A stretch of 7,805 nt of DNA, taken from Ktedonobacter sp. 13_1_20CM_4_53_11. Its GTDB lineage: Bacteria; Chloroflexota; Ktedonobacteria; Ktedonobacterales; Ktedonobacteraceae. The notes under the pieces were generated by a model. It was not told where the DNA came from. It ran no database searches and worked only from the letters and a program-made list of their open reading frames with translations. Position 1 is the stretch's first letter. Every line of letters begins with the position of its first letter. Below are positions 1 to 7,805 of the stretch, piece after piece. Made by a program: the position numbers and the translations under genes. Location of the stretch: positions 1 through 7,805 of the forward strand of contig MNIY01000058.1 of the NCBI GenBank assembly GCA_001919995.1, in the 5' to 3' direction.

Positions 1-1151
1 CCCATACGCCCCGTAAAGTTGCGGTTCATCGTCGTCAAAGCGCGCTCACCAGGTGCCAGTACACCATAGTGCCGGCCAATACAGGGGCCACAACCGGGAG
101 TGCCAACCGACGCGCCAGCCTGAATAAACGTTTCCAGGTAGCCCAGCCGCATCGCTTCCAGGTAAACCTCGCGAGAAGCGGGAACAACCACCATACGTGT
201 CTGGGGGTGAAGCGTCTTACCCCGCATGATGTTTGCGGCGATAGCAAGATCGTCAAGGCGACCGTTCGTACAGGTGCCGAGAAACACCTGGTCGATCTTC
301 ACTTGCTCGACCTCCTCAACCGGGACAACATTATTGACATCCGGCGGACAGGCAATCAGCGGTGACAGTTCCGAAGCATCAATCTCCACCACCCGTTCGT
401 AACGCGGATTGCATGGTGCCAGCATAGGATAATCGCGGTCGATACGACCACGCAACCACGCCCGGGTCATTGCATCGGGGGCAACGAGTCCCGCCTTGCC
501 GCCCATTTCAATCGCCATATTGCAGATGGTGAAACGCTCGCTCACCGACATCTGCTCGACCAACTCTCCCGTATACTCGATGGCGCGATAGTTGGCGCCA
601 TCAACGCCTACTTTGCGCACCATTTCAAAAGTCACATCCTTCGTATAAACACCAGAGGGAAGTCTTCCCGTCATGTGGATATTGATTGTTGGCGGGATAA
701 GAAACCAGGCTCGCCCGGTTGCATAGGCAACCCCGATGTCGGTAGAGCCCATGCCAGTAGCAAAGGCTCCGAGCGCCCCATAGGTACATGTGTGGCTATC
801 GGCCCCAACGATGATGTCACCCGGAGTAACATAACCACGCTCCGGCATTACCTGGTGGCAGATGCCCTCTTGCAAGATACCAATGTCCTGCTCCTGTGCA
901 AACGCGCGCACATCACGATGCAGCGTGGCCGCTGCAATGGTCGCTGCTGGTACGATGTGGTCAAACACAATATGCGAGCGCTGGGAATCGAAGACGCGCC
1001 CACCATTCGTCAATTTGCGAAAGGCCTGGATCGCCAGGGGAGTCGTCGTATCGTGGCTCATTACGCGGTCAACATCCACCACGACGGTCTCGCCCTGCGC
1101 TACCGTACGGCCCAACTTGTGGCTAAAGATTACTTCGGTTAAGGTTCCCAT
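1..1151 (-). CDS. lysT: Homoaconitase large subunit (LysT), 3' end cut by the window edge
   Basis: Catalytic [4Fe-4S] subunit of the aconitase/LeuC superfamily. In the AAA pathway it interconverts homocitrate, cis-homoaconitate and homoisocitrate; in Thermus the enzyme mainly does the second half-reaction. It needs a small swivel-domain subunit (LysU), which is not in this window. I read 383 codons by translating the minus strand from the ATG at 1151-1149. The three cluster-ligating cysteines are visible: C294 in FLGTCTNGRLDD, and C354 and C357 in GCGPCIGRHYGVLAPGE. VFDHIVP (about 63-69) and GADSHTCTYGALGAFATGMG (117-136) are also family hallmarks. The frame is open to the edge, reaching NRNFTGRMG; the family is usually about 420 residues, so roughly 35-40 are missing. 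The start overlaps the end of the homocitrate synthase gene by 13 bases, with AGGAAG (1158-1163) 6 bases upstream. Isopropylmalate isomerase (LeuC) is close in sequence; the lysine-gene context and the CIGRH loop favour homoaconitase. Confidence 0.88.
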   Translation of the reverse strand, partial: MGTLTEVIFSHKLGRTVAQGETVVVDVDRVMSHDTTTPLAIQAFRKLTNGGRVFDSQRSHIVFDHIVPAATIAAATLHRDVRAFAQEQDIGILQEGICHQVMPERGYVTPGDIIVGADSHTCTYGALGAFATGMGSTDIGVAYATGRAWFLIPPTINIHMTGRLPSGVYTKDVTFEMVRKVGVDGANYRAIEYTGELVEQMSVSERFTICNMAIEMGGKAGLVAPDAMTRAWLRGRIDRDYPMLAPCNPRYERVVEIDASELSPLIACPPDVNNVVPVEEVEQVKIDQVFLGTCTNGRLDDLAIAANIMRGKTLHPQTRMVVVPASREVYLEAMRLGYLETFIQAGASVGTPGCGPCIGRHYGVLAPGERALTTMNRNFTGRM

Positions 1152-2350
1152 GTTACACTTCCTTTCTCCTGATTCCCCTCCCGCAGCGCTATGTCGGCTC
1201 CACTACATTCCGCTCGACTTACGCTCCCCTCCTCCCACCAACTATGAATAAATGCATCGACTTCTTCCTGGTTCAGCGAACCGCATTCAGCTCGCTCTTT
1301 AAGAGCCTGAGTAAGATGACAAACCTCGTCATTGCTGAGGCGCAGCCCCAATGCCGTAGCGCGATGCCCTACGGCATGGCGTCCCGTGAAACGAGACCCA
1401 ACATCAATGCTGCGCATCAGTCCAAAGTCTGCTGGAGCCATCACCTCATACGAACGAGGATTCTTGAGCACTGCTTTTGTATGCACACCGGCTCTGTGCG
1501 CAAACGCTCCTGGAGCAGTGATCGGCATATTAAAGGGAATTGGCAAATCGAGGCACTCTGATACAAAGTGATCAAGTAGCGCCAGCTGCGTGAGATCGTA
1601 CGTCTCCAGCAGCTCCGGGTAATGAATATAGAGTTGCGCGATCAGGCCACTGAGCGAGGCGATACCATTGCGTTCGCCGATACCCATGACGGTAACGTCG
1701 AGGCAATCCGCACCACCCTCCAGCGCCGCGACAGTATTAGCAATAGCACATCCGGTATCATTGTGCCCGTGGAACTCAATACCAACCTGTGGATAACGTT
1801 CAGTGCAGAGAGCGACAAGCCGCTCAACCTGTCGCGGTGTGGCAATACCAACGGTGTCGGGCAAACCAATGCGCTGCACTCCTGCCTCAACGACAGCGTC
1901 AAAGACGGTCAGCAGGTCAACCAGGTCGCTGCGAAAGGCATCCTCAGCGGAAAAGCGCACGTAGCGCCCAGTCGATCGGATGAGTCGAATCAACGGTACA
2001 GCGTCGGCGAGAAGCTGGTCGATGCGGCGGCCATGGCTGTAGGTACGGAGCTCTGCTGACGTTCCATAAAAGAGATTCAGGCCGAAAACAGATGTATCCA
2101 GTGCAGCCCGCACATCAGCCTCGACACAGCGCACATGTGCTACAACGTGCGCAGACAAACCAATTTCACATAGCGCTTGCACCGTCCGCCGCATCTCCGG
2201 CGAGACGGCAGGCGAAGGAACCTCTATGAACTCCACGCCGACGGCATCCAGTAAACGCGCAATCTTCAGTCGCTGCTCAAAGGTAAAGAAGGCACTGGTA
2301 AATTGCTCACCTTCGCGAAGCGTCGAATCGAGAATAGCCAGTGATCTCAT
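1139..2350 (-). CDS. hcs: Homocitrate synthase
   Basis: Condenses acetyl-CoA with 2-oxoglutarate to homocitrate, the committed step of the AAA pathway; a cytosolic metal-dependent TIM-barrel enzyme of the HMGL-like/LeuA family. At 403 residues it aligns by eye along its length with the Thermus enzyme (about 376). DSTLREGEQ (8-16) supplies metal and 2-oxoglutarate contacts including R12. H72 lies in VVAHVRC, RFSAEDAFRS is at 132-141, PDTVGIATPR at 164-173, and the metal-binding HGHND at 194-198. GIGERNG (223-229) is the LeuA/HCS signature and AHRAGVH (284-290) carries the catalytic His. H72 and the RFSAED segment favour homocitrate synthase over isopropylmalate or citramalate synthase; NifV is a less likely reading because no nitrogenase genes are near. 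About 28 residues past the usual end form a polar tail. The ATG overlaps the lysJK stop as ATGA, with AAGGAG (2361-2366) 10 bases upstream, suggesting translational coupling. Thermus HCS is inhibited by lysine; that cannot be judged here. Confidence 0.93.
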   Translation of the reverse strand: MRSLAILDSTLREGEQFTSAFFTFEQRLKIARLLDAVGVEFIEVPSPAVSPEMRRTVQALCEIGLSAHVVAHVRCVEADVRAALDTSVFGLNLFYGTSAELRTYSHGRRIDQLLADAVPLIRLIRSTGRYVRFSAEDAFRSDLVDLLTVFDAVVEAGVQRIGLPDTVGIATPRQVERLVALCTERYPQVGIEFHGHNDTGCAIANTVAALEGGADCLDVTVMGIGERNGIASLSGLIAQLYIHYPELLETYDLTQLALLDHFVSECLDLPIPFNMPITAPGAFAHRAGVHTKAVLKNPRSYEVMAPADFGLMRSIDVGSRFTGRHAVGHRATALGLRLSNDEVCHLTQALKERAECGSLNQEEVDAFIHSWWEEGSVSRAECSGADIALREGNQEKGSVTWEP

Positions 2351-4797
2351 TGTGTCGTTTCTCCTTGCAGGGCAAGTTCCCCCAGTACCAATTCAAGCAC
2401 ATCGATGGCATGCATATACTCGGCGACGCGTATATGCTCCTGAGGTGTATGATCGAGGCGCGAGTCACCGGGCCCATATGCAACGATGTTCTGTCCCCAG
2501 AACGGTCCCACGACATTCATATCCGCTGTCCCCGTTTTGTGCTTGAAGACTGGTTGTCCTCCGGTAGAGCGAATAGCAGATATGAAAGCTCGCGATAAGG
2601 GTATCGCACGCGTCGTCTGGAAGGCCGCCTCTTCACCTGAAAAACTGATTTGAGCCTCATCTTCGTAAGCCCATTGCTCCAGTTGGATACGCAAACCCTC
2701 GCTATCGTACCCGGGTGGTAAACGGTAACCAATAAGAAGCTGCGTCTGTTCCTCTAACCCATCTTGACTGCTGTTAATGCCGCGTAGCGATGGCATAAGC
2801 GCAGCAAAAGTAGAATGTGCCGCATGCTGCTCGTTCCAACCGGTGGCATGGTCACGCACTCGATTCCAGAAGGCCACAGCCACCTCGTTACCATTCTTAT
2901 GCAGACCTGCGCTATGCTGTATCTGGCGCGTAACACAGTACTCCACCAGCAACCTGCCCTTATACCCAATCGTCACTGCCTGACTTCCACTCGGCTCGCC
3001 GATTATGCAGGCAAGAGGCCGATAGCGTTCTACGACTGCTCGCGCCCCACGAGAGGTCGCAGATTCCTCTTCAACAGCTCCTATCACAACAACTGGATGC
3101 TGCAAGGAGTCTAAGCGGCTGGAACGTACCAGCCGGGCTGTGGCACTCAGGAAAGCCGCCAACGGACCTTTGGCATCTACCGCGCCCCGGCCATACAGCA
3201 CACCATCCTGTAATTTCACCGGAACGTGACCACGCACTGTATCCATATGACCGAGCAAGATAACAGGTTGCTGGTTCATACTGTTTTCAAGAAGATGCGT
3301 GGTGGCTATGAAGTTTCCAGCCTCGTCTATAGAGGCATGCAAACCCATTTGCTGTGCCTGCTCAACCATGTACCGGGCTAAATCTCGTTCCCGTCCCGAA
3401 TAGCTCGGAATAGTGAGCATGTTATAGAGAAGCGCTATTTCTGCGTTTGCATCACAGGTCAGGTTACCAGCGTGACCACGAGTGATCGCTCCCTCTATGT
3501 CGTGAAAGTGCCGCTGGGTCCCGTTCGTCCATGGTAGGGGTGATCCCTCGTGGGCGGGCTTATGCGGCTGTGTTGCACTCGTTCTTTCATTCGCCAACAT
3601 AGTCCCTTGTGCTCGCCCTGTCACATCCCGTTCCACCAGTACCTCTTCTACCGCAGCCAGTACCCGTTCCAATTGTGCCTCCGTAATTACCAGCGGAGGT
3701 AACAGGCGAATGACGTTTGGGCCGGCCTGAAGAGCGAGGATGCCTCGTTCGAACAGTGCTTCGAGGTACGGTTGAGCGCGTCGGCTGAGCTCGATGCCAA
3801 GTAACAATCCTCTCCCGCGTACCTCGCGGATGAGCGGAGTTCGTAGCTTTCTTAGTCGATCAAGAGCGAGTGAGCCAAGTGCAGCCGCACGCTCAGGTAG
3901 AGCTTCTCGTTCAAGGATGTCGAGGCTGACGAGGGCAGCTGCGCAGGCCAATGGATTACCGCCAAAGCTGCTGCCGTGGATGCCCCTGGTAATACGCCCG
4001 CTCTCCATTACGCGCGGACCCAGGCAGACCGCTCCCATAGGAATACCACCGGCCAGGGATTTTGCGAGGCAGAGAATATCCGGCTGGAGGTCATAGTGGT
4101 CACAGGCAAAGAGAGATCCCGTACGCCCAAAGCCCGTCTGCACTTCGTCAACAATCAGCAAGACCCCGCGTTCACGGCAAAGTGCTGCAAGACCCCGCAC
4201 GTATTCATCCGAAGCCACGTGAACACCTCCTTCCCCCTGCACCAGTTCAATGATTACTGCCGCGGTCTGCTCATTGATGGCTGCTCGGGCAGCTGCGAGA
4301 TCGTTATAACGTATATGGCTGACATCGGGAACGAGCGGCGCGAAGGGCTCACGGTAGTGCGGTTCCCATGTTGCCGAAAGCGCACCCATCGTGCGACCAT
4401 GGAAGCCCCGCAGCGCCGCAACTATTCCTGCGCGCCCAGTGGCAATGCGTGCAAATTTGATTGCCCCCTCCACAGCCTCGGTACCGCTGTTGCATAAGAA
4501 GATGTGTGTGAGTCCTTCCGGCACAAGGCATGCAAGGCGTTCAAGCAAACGAGCCCGTACATCGTTGTAGACAATTTCTGGGCAGGTGATGAGGCGCAGT
4601 GCTTGCGCTGCAATGGCAGCAGCAACCTCTGGCCGTGCATGCCCGGCGCTCGCCACGCCGTAGCCTGCGGTGCAGTCGATATATTCGTGTCCATCGGCAT
4701 CCCATAATAAGGCGCCGCTTCCCCGTACGATAACTACAGGGCGCTTACTGTACACGCCACAACTGTAGGTGTTTTCGAGGTCGATGGCAGCAATCAT
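2347..4797 (-). CDS. lysJK: Fused LysJ aminotransferase - LysK hydrolase (bifunctional)
   Basis: One 816-residue frame carries the last two carrier-bound steps. Residues 1-390 are a class III PLP aminotransferase like LysJ/ArgD, which transaminates LysW-aminoadipate semialdehyde to LysW-lysine. Visible are SGTEA (104-108), GFHGRTMGALS (131-141), the PLP-contacting DEVQTG (217-222) and the Schiff-base lysine K246 in CLAKSLAGG. YIDCTAGYGVA and LALQAGPNVIRLLPPLVI match Thermus LysJ as I recall it. Residues 391-450 are a polar linker rich in His, Pro and Thr. Residues 451-816 are an M20-family zinc hydrolase like LysK (Thermus about 360 residues), which frees lysine from LysW. H517 and D519 (GHMDT), D541 (GRGAVDAKGP), E577/E578 (VEEES), E601 (GEPSG) and H783 (LDHTP) form the complete dinuclear metal and base set. 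The ATG overlaps the lysZ stop (ATGA) and has AAGGA at 4805-4809, 7 bases upstream. LysJ and LysK are separate proteins in the characterised systems. A dual role in arginine synthesis (ArgD/ArgE-like) is possible. Confidence 0.93.
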   Translation of the reverse strand: MIAAIDLENTYSCGVYSKRPVVIVRGSGALLWDADGHEYIDCTAGYGVASAGHARPEVAAAIAAQALRLITCPEIVYNDVRARLLERLACLVPEGLTHIFLCNSGTEAVEGAIKFARIATGRAGIVAALRGFHGRTMGALSATWEPHYREPFAPLVPDVSHIRYNDLAAARAAINEQTAAVIIELVQGEGGVHVASDEYVRGLAALCRERGVLLIVDEVQTGFGRTGSLFACDHYDLQPDILCLAKSLAGGIPMGAVCLGPRVMESGRITRGIHGSSFGGNPLACAAALVSLDILEREALPERAAALGSLALDRLRKLRTPLIREVRGRGLLLGIELSRRAQPYLEALFERGILALQAGPNVIRLLPPLVITEAQLERVLAAVEEVLVERDVTGRAQGTMLANERTSATQPHKPAHEGSPLPWTNGTQRHFHDIEGAITRGHAGNLTCDANAEIALLYNMLTIPSYSGRERDLARYMVEQAQQMGLHASIDEAGNFIATTHLLENSMNQQPVILLGHMDTVRGHVPVKLQDGVLYGRGAVDAKGPLAAFLSATARLVRSSRLDSLQHPVVVIGAVEEESATSRGARAVVERYRPLACIIGEPSGSQAVTIGYKGRLLVEYCVTRQIQHSAGLHKNGNEVAVAFWNRVRDHATGWNEQHAAHSTFAALMPSLRGINSSQDGLEEQTQLLIGYRLPPGYDSEGLRIQLEQWAYEDEAQISFSGEEAAFQTTRAIPLSRAFISAIRSTGGQPVFKHKTGTADMNVVGPFWGQNIVAYGPGDSRLDHTPQEHIRVAEYMHAIDVLELVLGELALQGETTQ
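3448..3627 (-). other. Interdomain linker coding segment of the LysJ-LysK fusion
   Basis: Codes for about residues 391-450 of the fusion, between the last helix of the aminotransferase (AAVEEVLVER) and the first helix of the hydrolase (NAEIALLYNML). It is polar, with several His, Pro, Thr and Gly residues and no catalytic motif of either family, so it is probably flexible. An in-frame ATG at 3598-3600 (Met400) has only a weak, too-close AAGGG three bases upstream, so a separate LysK product starting here is possible but not favoured. Boundaries are by eye and could be off by about ten residues either way. Confidence 0.7.
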
Positions 4798-5624
4798 ATG
4801 CCGATCCTTTCTCTTGAACTGTAGGATGATTCAATAGTTGTTCCCACTCCATTGAGCACCTCTAACAATGAGATGCTCCCAATACAGACTCGGGGCACAC
4901 CGCCCTGTATGGCTTCCTGCGCACCCAGCAATTTCTTGCGCATACGGCCCTGGGCATATTCAGCGAAGTCTGCAATGCGTTCGGCAGGGATAGTACGGAT
5001 GAGCGTAGCGTTGTCCCCTGGGTCGGCCAACAAACCGGGAACGTTCGTCATGATGACCAGGGCCTCGGCCTGTAGCGCGACGGCAACTGCAGCAGCTGCA
5101 CGGTCTCCATCCACATTCAGGCGTTCTCCCTCCCGGCTTAATGCCAGCGGCGCGATGACGGGGGTATAGCCAGCATCAAGTAACTGCCGGAGCAGTCTAT
5201 CATTCACCCGCTCGACCTGTCCGGTGTAGTCGTCGCGCAGTATTTGTAGGCGTCCCTCGGGAGTGAGCGAGCGTACAATTGACTTGCGTCTCGCCAGCAG
5301 CAGTCTCCCATCTACTCCAGCTAGCCCGAGGGCATTGATACCCTGTTGCTGCAAGCAGGCCACCAGCTCGGTATTGATCTGTCCGGCCACAGCCATAGCA
5401 TAGACGCGCAGGGTTTCGCTATCCGTGTAGCGGCTAACCATCCCACCTGGTGAAGTAACCATACGTGCTGGGCGCCCCAAACGCTCAGAGAGCGAGTTCG
5501 TGAGATCAGATCCTCCATGCAGTACGACGATACGCTCTCCCTGAGCAACACACTTCGCTATCTCACACACGATGTTCGCAGTGGTGGCCCCGGAGCTACC
5601 GCCAATCTTTACGACAAGCGTCAT
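4794..5624 (-). CDS. lysZ: LysW-aminoadipate kinase (LysZ)
   Basis: Amino-acid-kinase-fold enzyme that phosphorylates the side-chain carboxylate of LysW-bound AAA, making the acyl phosphate used by LysY. The 276-residue length is normal for the ArgB/LysZ family. Motifs are VVKIGGS at 4-10 (ATP phosphate binding, K6), HGG at 36-38, SRYTDSE at 64-70, LNVDGDRAAAAVA at 169-181 and GRMRKKLLGAQEA at 226-238 with the phosphate-binding lysine. SRYTD in place of the GLRVTD-type loop of N-acetylglutamate kinases, and MRKK in place of MxPK, are what I know of LysZ and argue for the carrier-bound substrate. It starts a sub-block after the only gap in the operon. Its Shine-Dalgarno is strong but distant. 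Its stop overlaps the lysJK start as ATGA. In organisms with one set of these genes LysZ may also serve arginine synthesis; that cannot be told here. Confidence 0.92.
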   Translation of the reverse strand: MTLVVKIGGSSGATTANIVCEIAKCVAQGERIVVLHGGSDLTNSLSERLGRPARMVTSPGGMVSRYTDSETLRVYAMAVAGQINTELVACLQQQGINALGLAGVDGRLLLARRKSIVRSLTPEGRLQILRDDYTGQVERVNDRLLRQLLDAGYTPVIAPLALSREGERLNVDGDRAAAAVAVALQAEALVIMTNVPGLLADPGDNATLIRTIPAERIADFAEYAQGRMRKKLLGAQEAIQGGVPRVCIGSISLLEVLNGVGTTIESSYSSRERIGI

Positions 5625-5635
5625 AGCAAAGCTCT

Positions 5636-5644
5636 ATCCTTCCT
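5636..5644 (-). promoter_or_regulatory. Distant ribosome binding site of lysZ
   Basis: The minus strand reads AGGAAGGAT here, followed by an unusually long spacer (about 11-12 bases) before the lysZ ATG at 5624-5622. No closer Shine-Dalgarno is present. The only other in-frame Met codons lie deep in the kinase fold after its VVKIGGS loop, so the start stands. Translation from this site may be weaker than for the other genes, which have 6-10-base spacers. Confidence 0.55.
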
Positions 5645-5667
5645 AATGTACAATCAATTGACCCTTT

Positions 5668-5677
5668 GGGCTTGCTC
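5668..5677. repeat. Direct repeat copy 1, GGGCTTGCTC
   Basis: First copy of an exact 10-base direct repeat inside the lysY-lysZ gap, about 45 bases before the lysZ start. The start-to-start distance to copy 2 is 50 bases, close to five helical turns, which would suit a protein binding two sites on one face of the DNA. The repeat is short and could be chance. Confidence 0.4.
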
Positions 5678-5717
5678 ATGTATACTCTTCTTCATATAGA
5701 GGCGCAGCGCGAGGTCA

Positions 5718-5727
5718 GGGCTTGCTC
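5718..5727. repeat. Direct repeat copy 2, GGGCTTGCTC
   Basis: Second exact copy of the 10-base repeat, on the same strand, nearer the lysY stop. The flanking bases differ from copy 1, so identity is limited to the ten bases. Regulatory use is a guess. Confidence 0.4.
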
Positions 5728-5762
5728 TCTTTTACGATCCGCCTTGAGGATACTGCAAACAA

Positions 5763-6881
5763 CTATACGGGATGCAAACCAGGAAAGGTCAATCCCAACG
5801 ACTCGTCCCAACCGTACACGCAATTGAGAGCTTGTACAGCATTTCCGGCTGCGCCTTTCAGCAGGTTGTCCAGGGCAGCGATGATCACTACGCGCCTCCC
5901 TTCCTCCCTCGAAGTGTCTCCCAGACGCTTCCCTCCATCCGCCCCTACCCTCTGCTGAATAGGGTCGAGTTCAAAGCCGATATCGCAATAGTTGCTTCCC
6001 GCCAAAATCTTCGGTTCGGGATACCGGTAAACACCACTGCGTTCTTTGATCAGCCGGATGAAAGGCTCGTGTTGATAGGCTTCGCGATAGAGCCTCCACA
6101 AGGTACGCTCGTCTACATTCTCATTCAAAAAGGGATGGGCAGTAACAAGCACTCCGCGCACTAACTCGACCGCCGTTGCAGAGAAGGCGATGTGCTGGCG
6201 AAGTTCCCCGCCAGAGGCTCGACCAAGCTCCTGTATGAGTTCGGCAGTATGACGATGCCCGGTAGGTTGAAATGAGCGCACGGCACCGCTCCTATCGGGA
6301 TGATGGCTGCCGGGACCTGGTGTGGCACCTGCTGCCGATGAGCCGACTTTGGCTTCCACTACGAGAGGAAGTGTATCGTCCACGAGACCAGCCCGGTAGA
6401 GTGGAGCCAATCCCAGGATGGCTGCAGTTGCCATACACCCGGTGCCACTTACAAGCGTCGCACCAGGCAGTTCCTCACGGTGTAGTTCAGGCAGGCCATA
6501 GACAGCCTCATCCAGAAGATGGGATGCGCAATGCGGCTCGCCATACCATTGTTCGTAAAGCCCGGCGGAGCGCAATCTGAAATCGGCTGAAAGATCGATG
6601 ACGCGTGGCGCAATTGACCGGTAGCGTTCAATCTCCCTGGAGGCTAAGCCATGTGGCAGGCAAAGGAAAAGCAAATCGCATGATTTCAGATCGTCGGGAT
6701 GACAGAAGCGCAAAGAACTGATTTTACGCAGATTCGGATGCACGCTATGCAAGTATTGCCCGGCATGACTGCCAGATGCCACCCGCGTCAATTCAACCCG
6801 TGGATGGAAGAGTAGGAGCCGCGCCAGTTCTCCTCCTGTATAACCAGATCCGCCAATGATAGCAACACGCAGGCGATTCAT
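5763..6881 (-). CDS. lysY: LysW-aminoadipyl-6-phosphate reductase (LysY)
   Basis: NADPH-dependent reductase of the ArgC/aspartate-semialdehyde dehydrogenase family. It converts LysW-aminoadipyl phosphate to the semialdehyde that LysJ transaminates. With the chosen start it is 372 residues; relatives are about 345-350. The Rossmann loop is GGSGYTGGE at 10-18, DLSADFRLR is at 96-104, the catalytic cysteine is C149 in SGTGCMATAAI, the GHRHTAE segment at 208-214 holds the conserved His, and LDNLLKGAAGNAVQALN at 337-353 is the C-terminal signature. GTGCMATA in place of the PGCYPT loop of ArgC fits LysY. I chose ATG 6881-6879 over the upstream in-frame ATG at 6905 because the fold begins at MNRLRVAIIGG, AGGAGGAGG lies 7 bases upstream, and this start overlaps the lysX stop as ATGA. 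A segment of about 24 residues (306-329) before the last strand has no counterpart in the relatives I recall and explains the extra length. Confidence 0.92.
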   Translation of the reverse strand: MNRLRVAIIGGSGYTGGELARLLLFHPRVELTRVASGSHAGQYLHSVHPNLRKISSLRFCHPDDLKSCDLLFLCLPHGLASREIERYRSIAPRVIDLSADFRLRSAGLYEQWYGEPHCASHLLDEAVYGLPELHREELPGATLVSGTGCMATAAILGLAPLYRAGLVDDTLPLVVEAKVGSSAAGATPGPGSHHPDRSGAVRSFQPTGHRHTAELIQELGRASGGELRQHIAFSATAVELVRGVLVTAHPFLNENVDERTLWRLYREAYQHEPFIRLIKERSGVYRYPEPKILAGSNYCDIGFELDPIQQRVGADGGKRLGDTSREEGRRVVIIAALDNLLKGAAGNAVQALNCVYGWDESLGLTFPGLHPV

Positions 6882-7741
6882 CTTACAGCCTCCTCCTGCG
6901 CGCAACTAAGTACATAGTCAAGCATTGCATTGGGTATATCAACGCCTGTTGGAGCAATGCTATTGCGGAACTCCATCGTGGCATTGATTTCATTGATCAG
7001 CAGGCCGCGCCGCTCGTCTTCAAGCACGTCGATTGCCAGGATACCCCCACCGACAGCCTGTGCAGCACGCACACACAGGCTATCAAGCTCAGGTGTAACC
7101 GGGCAATTGCTGGCAACCGCACCACGAGCGGTGTTTGTGACCCAGTGTTCACTTGTACGATAGATTGCACAGATGGTACGCTCACCAACGACAAACGCAC
7201 GAATATCACGCTGCGGCTTGGCAATATACTCCTGTATATAGTGGATATGATGCTGATAGGAGCCGAGCGTCTCCCGGTGTTCGAGCACTGCTTCTGCAGC
7301 ATCGCGGTCATTAATACGCGCCAGCAAGCGCCCCCACGACCCCGATGTTGGCTTAAGCACGACGGGATAACTCAACATATCCATACCTTTAATGGCCACC
7401 TGTGAATCAAAGGCCAGCATGGTATGCGGTGTCGGGATACCTGCACGGAGCAGCGCCAATGTCGTGAGCAGCTTATCGTTACACGTTGCAGTCACAGTTG
7501 CCGGGTTATAGACGCGTACGCCCCAGTGCTCTAATACATGCAGCATTGCTAACCCACGCGATTGACTCATGCTGCGGCAGAGGACAGCATCATACTCACG
7601 CCATCGCTCATCAGGATATGACAGGTCAAGCAGCAATTCTCCATCATCAACGATGTCAAATGCAATTGCCCTCTGTCTCAGCGCATCGATCAATAGTCTC
7701 TCTTCCACGCGAATGCGCGATGTGAGAATAGCCAGGCGCAT
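6878..7741 (-). CDS. lysX: LysW-aminoadipate ligase (LysX), ATP-grasp
   Basis: ATP-dependent ligase that joins the amino group of AAA to the gamma-carboxyl of the C-terminal Glu of LysW, protecting it for the following steps. The protein has 287 residues, close to the family norm of about 280. RimK-type ATP-grasp features are NDKLLTTLALLRAGIPTP (88-105, K90), YPVVLKPTSGSWGRLLARI (125-143, K130 and the glycine-rich loop), YIQEYI (168-173), RDIRAFVVGE (178-187), NTARGA (203-208) and the metal ligands D238, E251 and N253 in AIDVLED and INEINATMEFRNS. TMEFRNS followed by TGVDIP is characteristic of LysX/ArgX. I chose ATG 7741-7739 because the family begins at MRLAILTSRIR, GGGGAGAG lies 7 bases upstream, and the ATG at 7768 would overlap the end of lysW. 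The position right after lysW supports the role. Ala254 is odd, since I recall His there in Thermus LysX. Confidence 0.93.
   Translation of the reverse strand: MRLAILTSRIRVEERLLIDALRQRAIAFDIVDDGELLLDLSYPDERWREYDAVLCRSMSQSRGLAMLHVLEHWGVRVYNPATVTATCNDKLLTTLALLRAGIPTPHTMLAFDSQVAIKGMDMLSYPVVLKPTSGSWGRLLARINDRDAAEAVLEHRETLGSYQHHIHYIQEYIAKPQRDIRAFVVGERTICAIYRTSEHWVTNTARGAVASNCPVTPELDSLCVRAAQAVGGGILAIDVLEDERRGLLINEINATMEFRNSIAPTGVDIPNAMLDYVLSCAQEEAVR
6889..6897 (-). promoter_or_regulatory. Ribosome binding site of lysY
   Basis: The minus strand reads AGGAGGAGG with a 7-base spacer to the ATG at 6881-6879. It lies inside the last codons of lysX. It settles the lysY start, since the longer alternative at 6905 would put this site inside the coding region. 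Confidence 0.85.
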
Positions 7742-7745
7742 CGTG

Positions 7746-7805
7746 TCACTCTCCCCAATCTTCTTCAACCTGGGGTGCCAGCGCTACGGCCGGTGGTTCC
7801 AGGCG
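7746..7805 (-). CDS. lysW: Amino-group carrier protein LysW, C-terminal end only
   Basis: Only the last 19 codons and the stop are inside the window; the zinc-ribbon N-terminal part lies beyond the right edge. The readable C-terminus is RLEPPAVALAPQVEEDWGE. The terminal EDWGE is the invariant tail of LysW, whose last Glu receives AAA through its gamma-carboxyl, and RLEP matches the start of the acidic tail in Thermus LysW. LysW is a small acidic protein (about 54 residues in Thermus) that carries the growing lysine between LysX, LysZ, LysY, LysJ and LysK. The stop is 4 bases before the lysX ATG. The stretch between RLEP and EDWGE is about five residues longer than the Thermus tail as I recall it. 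Despite its small size the call is firm, because the tail is diagnostic and lysX follows at once. Confidence 0.88.
   Translation of the reverse strand, partial: RLEPPAVALAPQVEEDWGE
7749..7756 (-). promoter_or_regulatory. Ribosome binding site of lysX
   Basis: The minus strand reads GGGGAGAG, formed by the last codons of lysW (Gly-Glu), with 7 bases to the lysX ATG at 7741-7739. It fixes the lysX start and implies that translation of the carrier and of its ligase is coupled. Confidence 0.7.

Follow-up and report, generated by a model that had tools for sequence, protein, structure and literature searches.

A LysJ–LysK fusion in the LysW operon of Ktedonobacter and its family: a candidate single-chain enzyme for the last two carrier-bound steps of lysine synthesis

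Could a single protein carry out both final steps of lysine synthesis on the LysW carrier, and, if so, how did it come about? The question is raised by a contig of Ktedonobacter sp. 13_1_20CM_4_53_11 (MNIY01000058.1), of which we analysed one stretch of 7,805 nucleotides (positions 1 to 7,805, hereafter the window). A preliminary description of this DNA had claimed one uninterrupted frame of 816 codons at 2347–4797, and reading of the open reading frames bears this out: on the minus strand, the frame is unbroken between 4797 and 2347. This single open frame, lysJK, codes for an aminotransferase of LysJ type and an M20 hydrolase of LysK type, joined by a linker predicted to be disordered, laid out as follows.

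2347..4797, minus strand: lysJK fusion gene, 816 codons, start ATG at 4797 and stop at 2347–2349
3634..4797, minus strand: LysJ-type class III aminotransferase domain, approximately residues 1–388, with K246 expected to bind pyridoxal phosphate (PLP)
3457..3633, minus strand: linker, approximately residues 389–447, predicted to be disordered, hypervariable
2350..3456, minus strand: LysK-type M20 hydrolase domain, approximately residues 448–816, with H517, D519, D541, E577, E578, E601 and H783

A Pfam search of the fusion protein returned Aminotran_3 at residues 20–387 and Peptidase_M20 at residues 514–805, and no other domain. Among the NCBIfam models, the Thermus LysJ model NF042418 ranked top of 107 over residues 5–387 (465.8 bits), and residues 451–809 matched the [LysW]-lysine hydrolase model NF003367 with 387.9 bits against a cut-off of 363. 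The nearest solved chains by sequence were 1vef for the LysJ half and 4q7a and 5xoy for the LysK half. Because the aminotransferase took all matches listed in the fold searches, the assignment of the LysK half draws on the sequence models and on AlphaFold confidence.

Residues and linker were compared in an alignment of the window with 91 of the 120 listed homologues (92 sequences, near copies having been dropped by eye). The LysJ half has the class III aminotransferase fold together with its PLP lysine, and K246 is invariant in 92/92 fused sequences; so are the seven M20 metal and base residues of the LysK half, which match identical residues in 4q7a and 5xoy. The preliminary description had assigned K246 to a class III aminotransferase and H517, D541, E578, E601 and H783 to an M20 hydrolase, and both assignments hold. 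We take K246 to be the Schiff-base lysine for PLP, and the M20 residues to form a two-metal site with its base. Mean identity to the window was 0.84 for LysJ, 0.76 for LysK and 0.15 for the linker (for which 88 of 91 rows were comparable), and the length of LysJ was constant at 384 residues in 85 of the 92 sequences. Across 16 pairs of relatives, with the near-identical pair of the window and L001 left out, the ratio of nonsynonymous to synonymous substitution rates (dN/dS) was 0.04–0.15 for LysJ and 0.04–0.19 for LysK, indicating strong purifying selection on both domains.

Mapping the taxonomic spread of the two-domain architecture, as the preliminary description had proposed, was carried out over 47 genomes of the class, 29 of them from the same family as the nearest genome (G001). 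The in-frame LysJ–LysK junction was present in 26 of these 29, spanning 11 genera, and in 23 the fusion was a single open frame. Genome G229 has a contig end inside LysK, after the fused junction, and G322 and G335 (Ktedonospora formicarum) keep the junction in frame and carry a frame change inside LysK and LysJ, respectively. These changes lie at ~2950–2960 of L100 (LysK, G322) and ~8800–8830 of L016 (LysJ, K. formicarum); relatives have intact copies, and sequencing error, decay and recoding are all possible. As for the rest of the family, G266 has LysK at a contig end, the contig ending inside the domain, and the profile survey found neither LysJK nor LysX over cut-off in G165 and G237; the family genomes with LysX over cut-off are the same 26 that have the fusion. 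Named carriers are Ktedonobacter racemifer, K. robiniae, Ktedonosporobacter rubrisoli and K. formicarum, the junction of K. rubrisoli lying in a complete chromosome. Assembly error, a chance frame and a local sequencing error are thus ruled out by the recurrence of the same junction in 26/29 genomes, a complete chromosome included.

A protein database search, which took only proteins of 449–1428 residues so that stand-alone LysK cannot appear, gave 4711 matches of 7997 scored, with both Pfam domains in all 120 listed. For some listed homologues the machine name from JGI gives both activities, so the architecture is already in the databases; two others are named solely as hydrolase, an example of how best-hit naming loses one enzyme. 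Outside the family, none of 13 Chloroflexota loci with long frames (L118–L130) had both domains in one frame, in a survey confined to this phylum and to matches listed to ~E 1e-102, which leaves weaker fusions in the phylum possible; LysK adjoins LysJ in seven of the 13. Two of these loci, L118 (G225) and L120 (G081), have lysJ and lysK in the same frame with one stop and two stops between them, respectively, and are near-fusions by another path. On a contig titled Planctomycetota (L019), an adjacent lysJ and lysK pair is placed among those of Chloroflexota, through either misbinning or transfer. The preliminary description had allowed that the fusion might prove common and already described. 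Common it is, within one family, but we found no published description of it in the literature searched, which covered few subscription papers.

How the two genes came together can be approached through relatives in which they are still separate. The class has 18 further genomes in the set; LysJ and LysK occur in two of them, G085 and G077, each time as separate genes, and in both the lysJ stop and the lysK start share an ATGA in different frames. In seven of 16 unfused junctions read, the genes overlap and the start codon is in frame with LysK, through ATGA (L112, L116, L018, L130) or through TAATG or TGATG (L017, L019, L110); the ATGA at the lysJ stop of L128 is out of the LysK frame and was not counted. 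Trees were built with one row per locus, leaving out six loci whose fetched sequence includes LysJ but lacks a complete LysK (L122, L123, L124, L126, L127 and L129). The 48 rows of the LysJ tree comprise 27 fused and 18 separate loci and 3 ArgD-like sequences as outgroup; here the fused rows form one clade (support 100/99), joined to G085 and G077 at 99/97. In the LysK tree, rooted at its midpoint and with no outgroup among its 44 rows, the 26 fused rows and L111 (G266) likewise fall in one clade (100/99), joined to G085 and G077 at 99/96; L111 was labelled separate in this tree though its contig stops within the domain, and the two changes counted stem from that label. L130 sits on a long branch with the outgroup, and several rows are of odd composition. 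Given an ATGA-overlapping pair in the sister genomes and a single fused clade, the simplest reading is one fusion event from a coupled lysJ–lysK pair, and the fusion appears to have arisen once and been kept across the family.

The linker behaves differently from the domains that it joins. Its length is 16–133 residues (median 39) over the 92 sequences, and 18–80 residues between fixed columns in the 26 family loci. Linker dN/dS was 0.22–1.03, computable in 11 of the 16 pairs, from few codons and with dS saturated in some pairs. An AlphaFold model of the fusion based on an alignment of 77 sequences gave two confident domains, with a mean predicted local distance difference test score (pLDDT) of 86.1 and a predicted template modelling score (pTM) of 0.54, and residues 391–446 stayed below a pLDDT of 50; a model built on 92 close sequences did poorly (mean 62.7). 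Because the linker is predicted to be disordered, ranges so widely in length and evolves faster than the domains, a flexible tether fits better than a rigid tunnel.

The remaining genes of the window lie on the same strand.

7746..7805, minus strand: 3' end of lysW, carrier protein, ending EEDWGE; the rest of the gene, beyond the window, is present in L006
6878..7741, minus strand: lysX, aminoadipate-LysW ligase, start taken as ATG at 7741, with GSWGR and EFRNS motifs
5763..6881, minus strand: lysY, ArgC-type reductase, start taken as ATG at 6881
4794..5624, minus strand: lysZ, [LysW]-aminoadipate kinase, ATGA overlap with lysJK
1139..2350, minus strand: homocitrate synthase gene, ATGA overlap with lysJK
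1..1151, minus strand: homoaconitase-family large subunit gene, cut by the window end

The order on the minus strand is therefore lysW-X-Y-Z-JK-homocitrate synthase-homoaconitase. Contig L006, 99% identical to the window, carries a complete LysW of 53 residues with two Cys pairs and a terminal EEDWGE, in agreement with the carrier hallmark of Cys pairs and a terminal EDWGE given in PMC10433800. LysX scored 341.1 bits with TIGR02144 (cut-off 275.6), and the homoaconitase large subunit 495.5 bits with the HacA family (cut-off 385.7). The whole order recurs in five of seven fused loci checked (L006, L010, L012, L013, L016); the other two, L007 and L009, are cut by contig ends and are consistent as far as the sequence runs. 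At five unfused loci checked, the homocitrate synthase and homoaconitase genes lie upstream in L134, L017 and L018, and are absent from the fetched DNA at L132 and L133. Domain models, family junctions, both trees and these flanking genes thus agree with the preliminary description in placing a LysJ–LysK fusion in a LysW operon.

Does this operon make lysine? The LysX specificity motif, whose position on the LysX letters is our own placement, reads EFRNS in the LysX of the window, EFKNS in 1uc8 and 3vpd, EFKNA in 5k2m and EFKGF in 3vpb. According to PMC10433800, Asn-Thr versus Gly-Phe in this motif shifts preference between aminoadipate and glutamate; the motif points to a LysX specific for aminoadipate rather than glutamate. 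T-box leaders precede lysW in all four loci searched with E-values.

L013, 4198–4473 and 4542–4816: tandem T-box leaders upstream of lysW in K. racemifer, 94.7 and 65.0 bits
L010, 4216–4490 and 4556–4826: tandem T-box leaders upstream of lysW in K. rubrisoli, 82.5 and 82.4 bits
L132, 4552–4815: T-box leader upstream of lysW, 94.5 bits
L006, 1–258: T-box leader upstream of lysW, 85.9 bits

Read by eye in the Rfam consensus register, the specifier is AAA or AAG (lysine) in 6/6 matches, an agreement that a one-base shift breaks. We found no paper on a Ktedonobacter T-box in the literature searched. A lysine product is supported by the aminoadipate-type LysX motif, the homocitrate-branch genes and the lysine specifiers together. 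Elsewhere in the fused genomes, a second stand-alone class III aminotransferase, 36–43% identical to the LysJ half, was seen by eye among the matches listed in 23 of 26, and no second LysK was seen among the matches listed in the class survey. Models for dapB were passed in two of the 26 fused genomes and six of the 47 class genomes. Thirteen fused genomes have lysA over cut-off with no dapB over cut-off, and G085 has LysX, lysA and dapB all over cut-off. Nine genomes of the same order (G010, G042, G033, G141, G280, G157, G252, G101 and G197; completeness 79–94%) lack any LysX over cut-off as well as any match to lysA or dapB, and are either lysine auxotrophs or users of an unrecognised route.

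We consider it probable, at roughly 0.82, that lysJK encodes one bifunctional chain for the two final steps of lysine synthesis on the LysW carrier, of one origin and with a tether for a linker. The fusion itself, its conservation, its single clade, the catalytic residues and the operon can be read directly from the sequences; we infer the two activities, their substrates and any benefit of the tether. The N-terminal LysJ half, using PLP on K246, would aminate the aminoadipate semialdehyde attached to LysW, and the two-metal M20 site of the C-terminal LysK half would cut the isopeptide bond to give lysine and free LysW. Adjacent, ATGA-overlapping lysJ and lysK cistrons would have come into one frame once, in an ancestor of the Ktedonobacteraceae-type family, and the flexible linker would fix a 1:1 dose and keep both enzymes close. 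Several results weigh against this reading. The 465.8 bits of the LysJ half fall below the 700-bit cut-off of NF042418, a narrow Thermus-named model; the homocitrate synthase reaches 393.5 bits with its best model, TIGR02146, under a cut-off of 413.55; only two of the six T-box matches pass the gathering score of 93 and four fall below it, with none at that score in L006, L010 or the window, which stops short of the leader; and lysA is over cut-off in 13 of 26 fused genomes (23 of 47 in the class), so that another lysine-related decarboxylase exists there, which speaks against exclusive use of the LysW route, although dapB passes in only two of the 26. An operon making ornithine, alone or together with lysine, would accommodate the LysJ half also exceeding the argD cut-off (TIGR00707), and hyperthermophilic archaeal LysW enzymes do serve both products (PMC10433800); but EFRNS resembles the Thermus LysX rather than the EFKGF of ArgX, and the homocitrate-branch genes, the lysine specifier triplets and the second stand-alone aminotransferase make an ornithine role very improbable.

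The harder question is what, if anything, the fusion adds; the preliminary description had suggested that it might channel LysW-lysine and impose a new assembly. LysW-lysine might go straight from the active site of LysJ to that of LysK, never released and with LysW staying docked, as consecutive steps on one carrier, a domain order equal to the reaction order and retention in 26/29 family genomes would lead one to expect; yet a linker of 16–133 residues with 0.15 mean identity to the window, dN/dS up to 1.03, pLDDT below 50 and, with a pTM of 0.54, no sign of a fixed interface renders such channelling rather unlikely. By analogy with the tethered domains that act on acyl-carrier proteins, the LysK half might capture LysW-lysine before LysW diffuses off, acting as a hand-over unit throughout the family, a proposal that we regard as doubtful. 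Since a coupled pair needs just a small frame change to become one gene, fixation by drift or for dose control, with no catalytic gain, is a serious rival to which we give somewhat less than even odds: both sister genomes have the ancestral-type ATGA overlap, the linker evolves fast and other operon genes overlap likewise, but not one of the 26 fused genomes has re-split into two genes, and the frame changes of G322 and G335 lie inside domains rather than at the junction. That two proteins arise after all, by proteolysis of an easily cut disordered linker or by initiation within it, is highly improbable. The window does have an ATG at residue 400 preceded by an AAGG-containing sequence, but this ATG is missing in L086 (91% identical), though the same upstream stretch leads to a TTG in that locus, and possible linker starts are few or lacking in several fused loci, with none in L095 and L096. 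An internal start in the linker was accordingly rejected as not conserved.

For a single-chain lysJK enzyme, the practical interest lies in the hand-over of LysW-bound intermediates between enzymes, a process difficult to examine when the proteins are separate. The natural linkers span 16–133 residues and the sister genomes offer unfused pairs for control, so that the roles of tether length, dose and hand-over become directly testable, and lysJK offers an example of a coupled gene pair becoming a fusion.

Compared with known systems, the LysJ half departs from Thermus thermophilus LysJ (1vef; NF042418), which stands alone, in being fused and under the model cut-off. The LysK half resembles known LysK (5xoy, 4q7a; NF003367) in passing the model cut-off and in its identically aligned M20 residues; LysK stands alone there and forms the C-terminal half of the fusion here. 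The lysJ–lysK pairs of the sister genomes G085 and G077 share the gene order and are the nearest kin in both trees, and differ in being two cistrons in different frames joined by ATGA instead of one frame. AroL–AroB, presented in PMC7311316 as a fusion of amino-acid pathway enzymes, similarly unites two enzymes of one pathway in a single chain, whereas the two steps of lysJK would directly follow one another, on an intermediate that a carrier protein holds.

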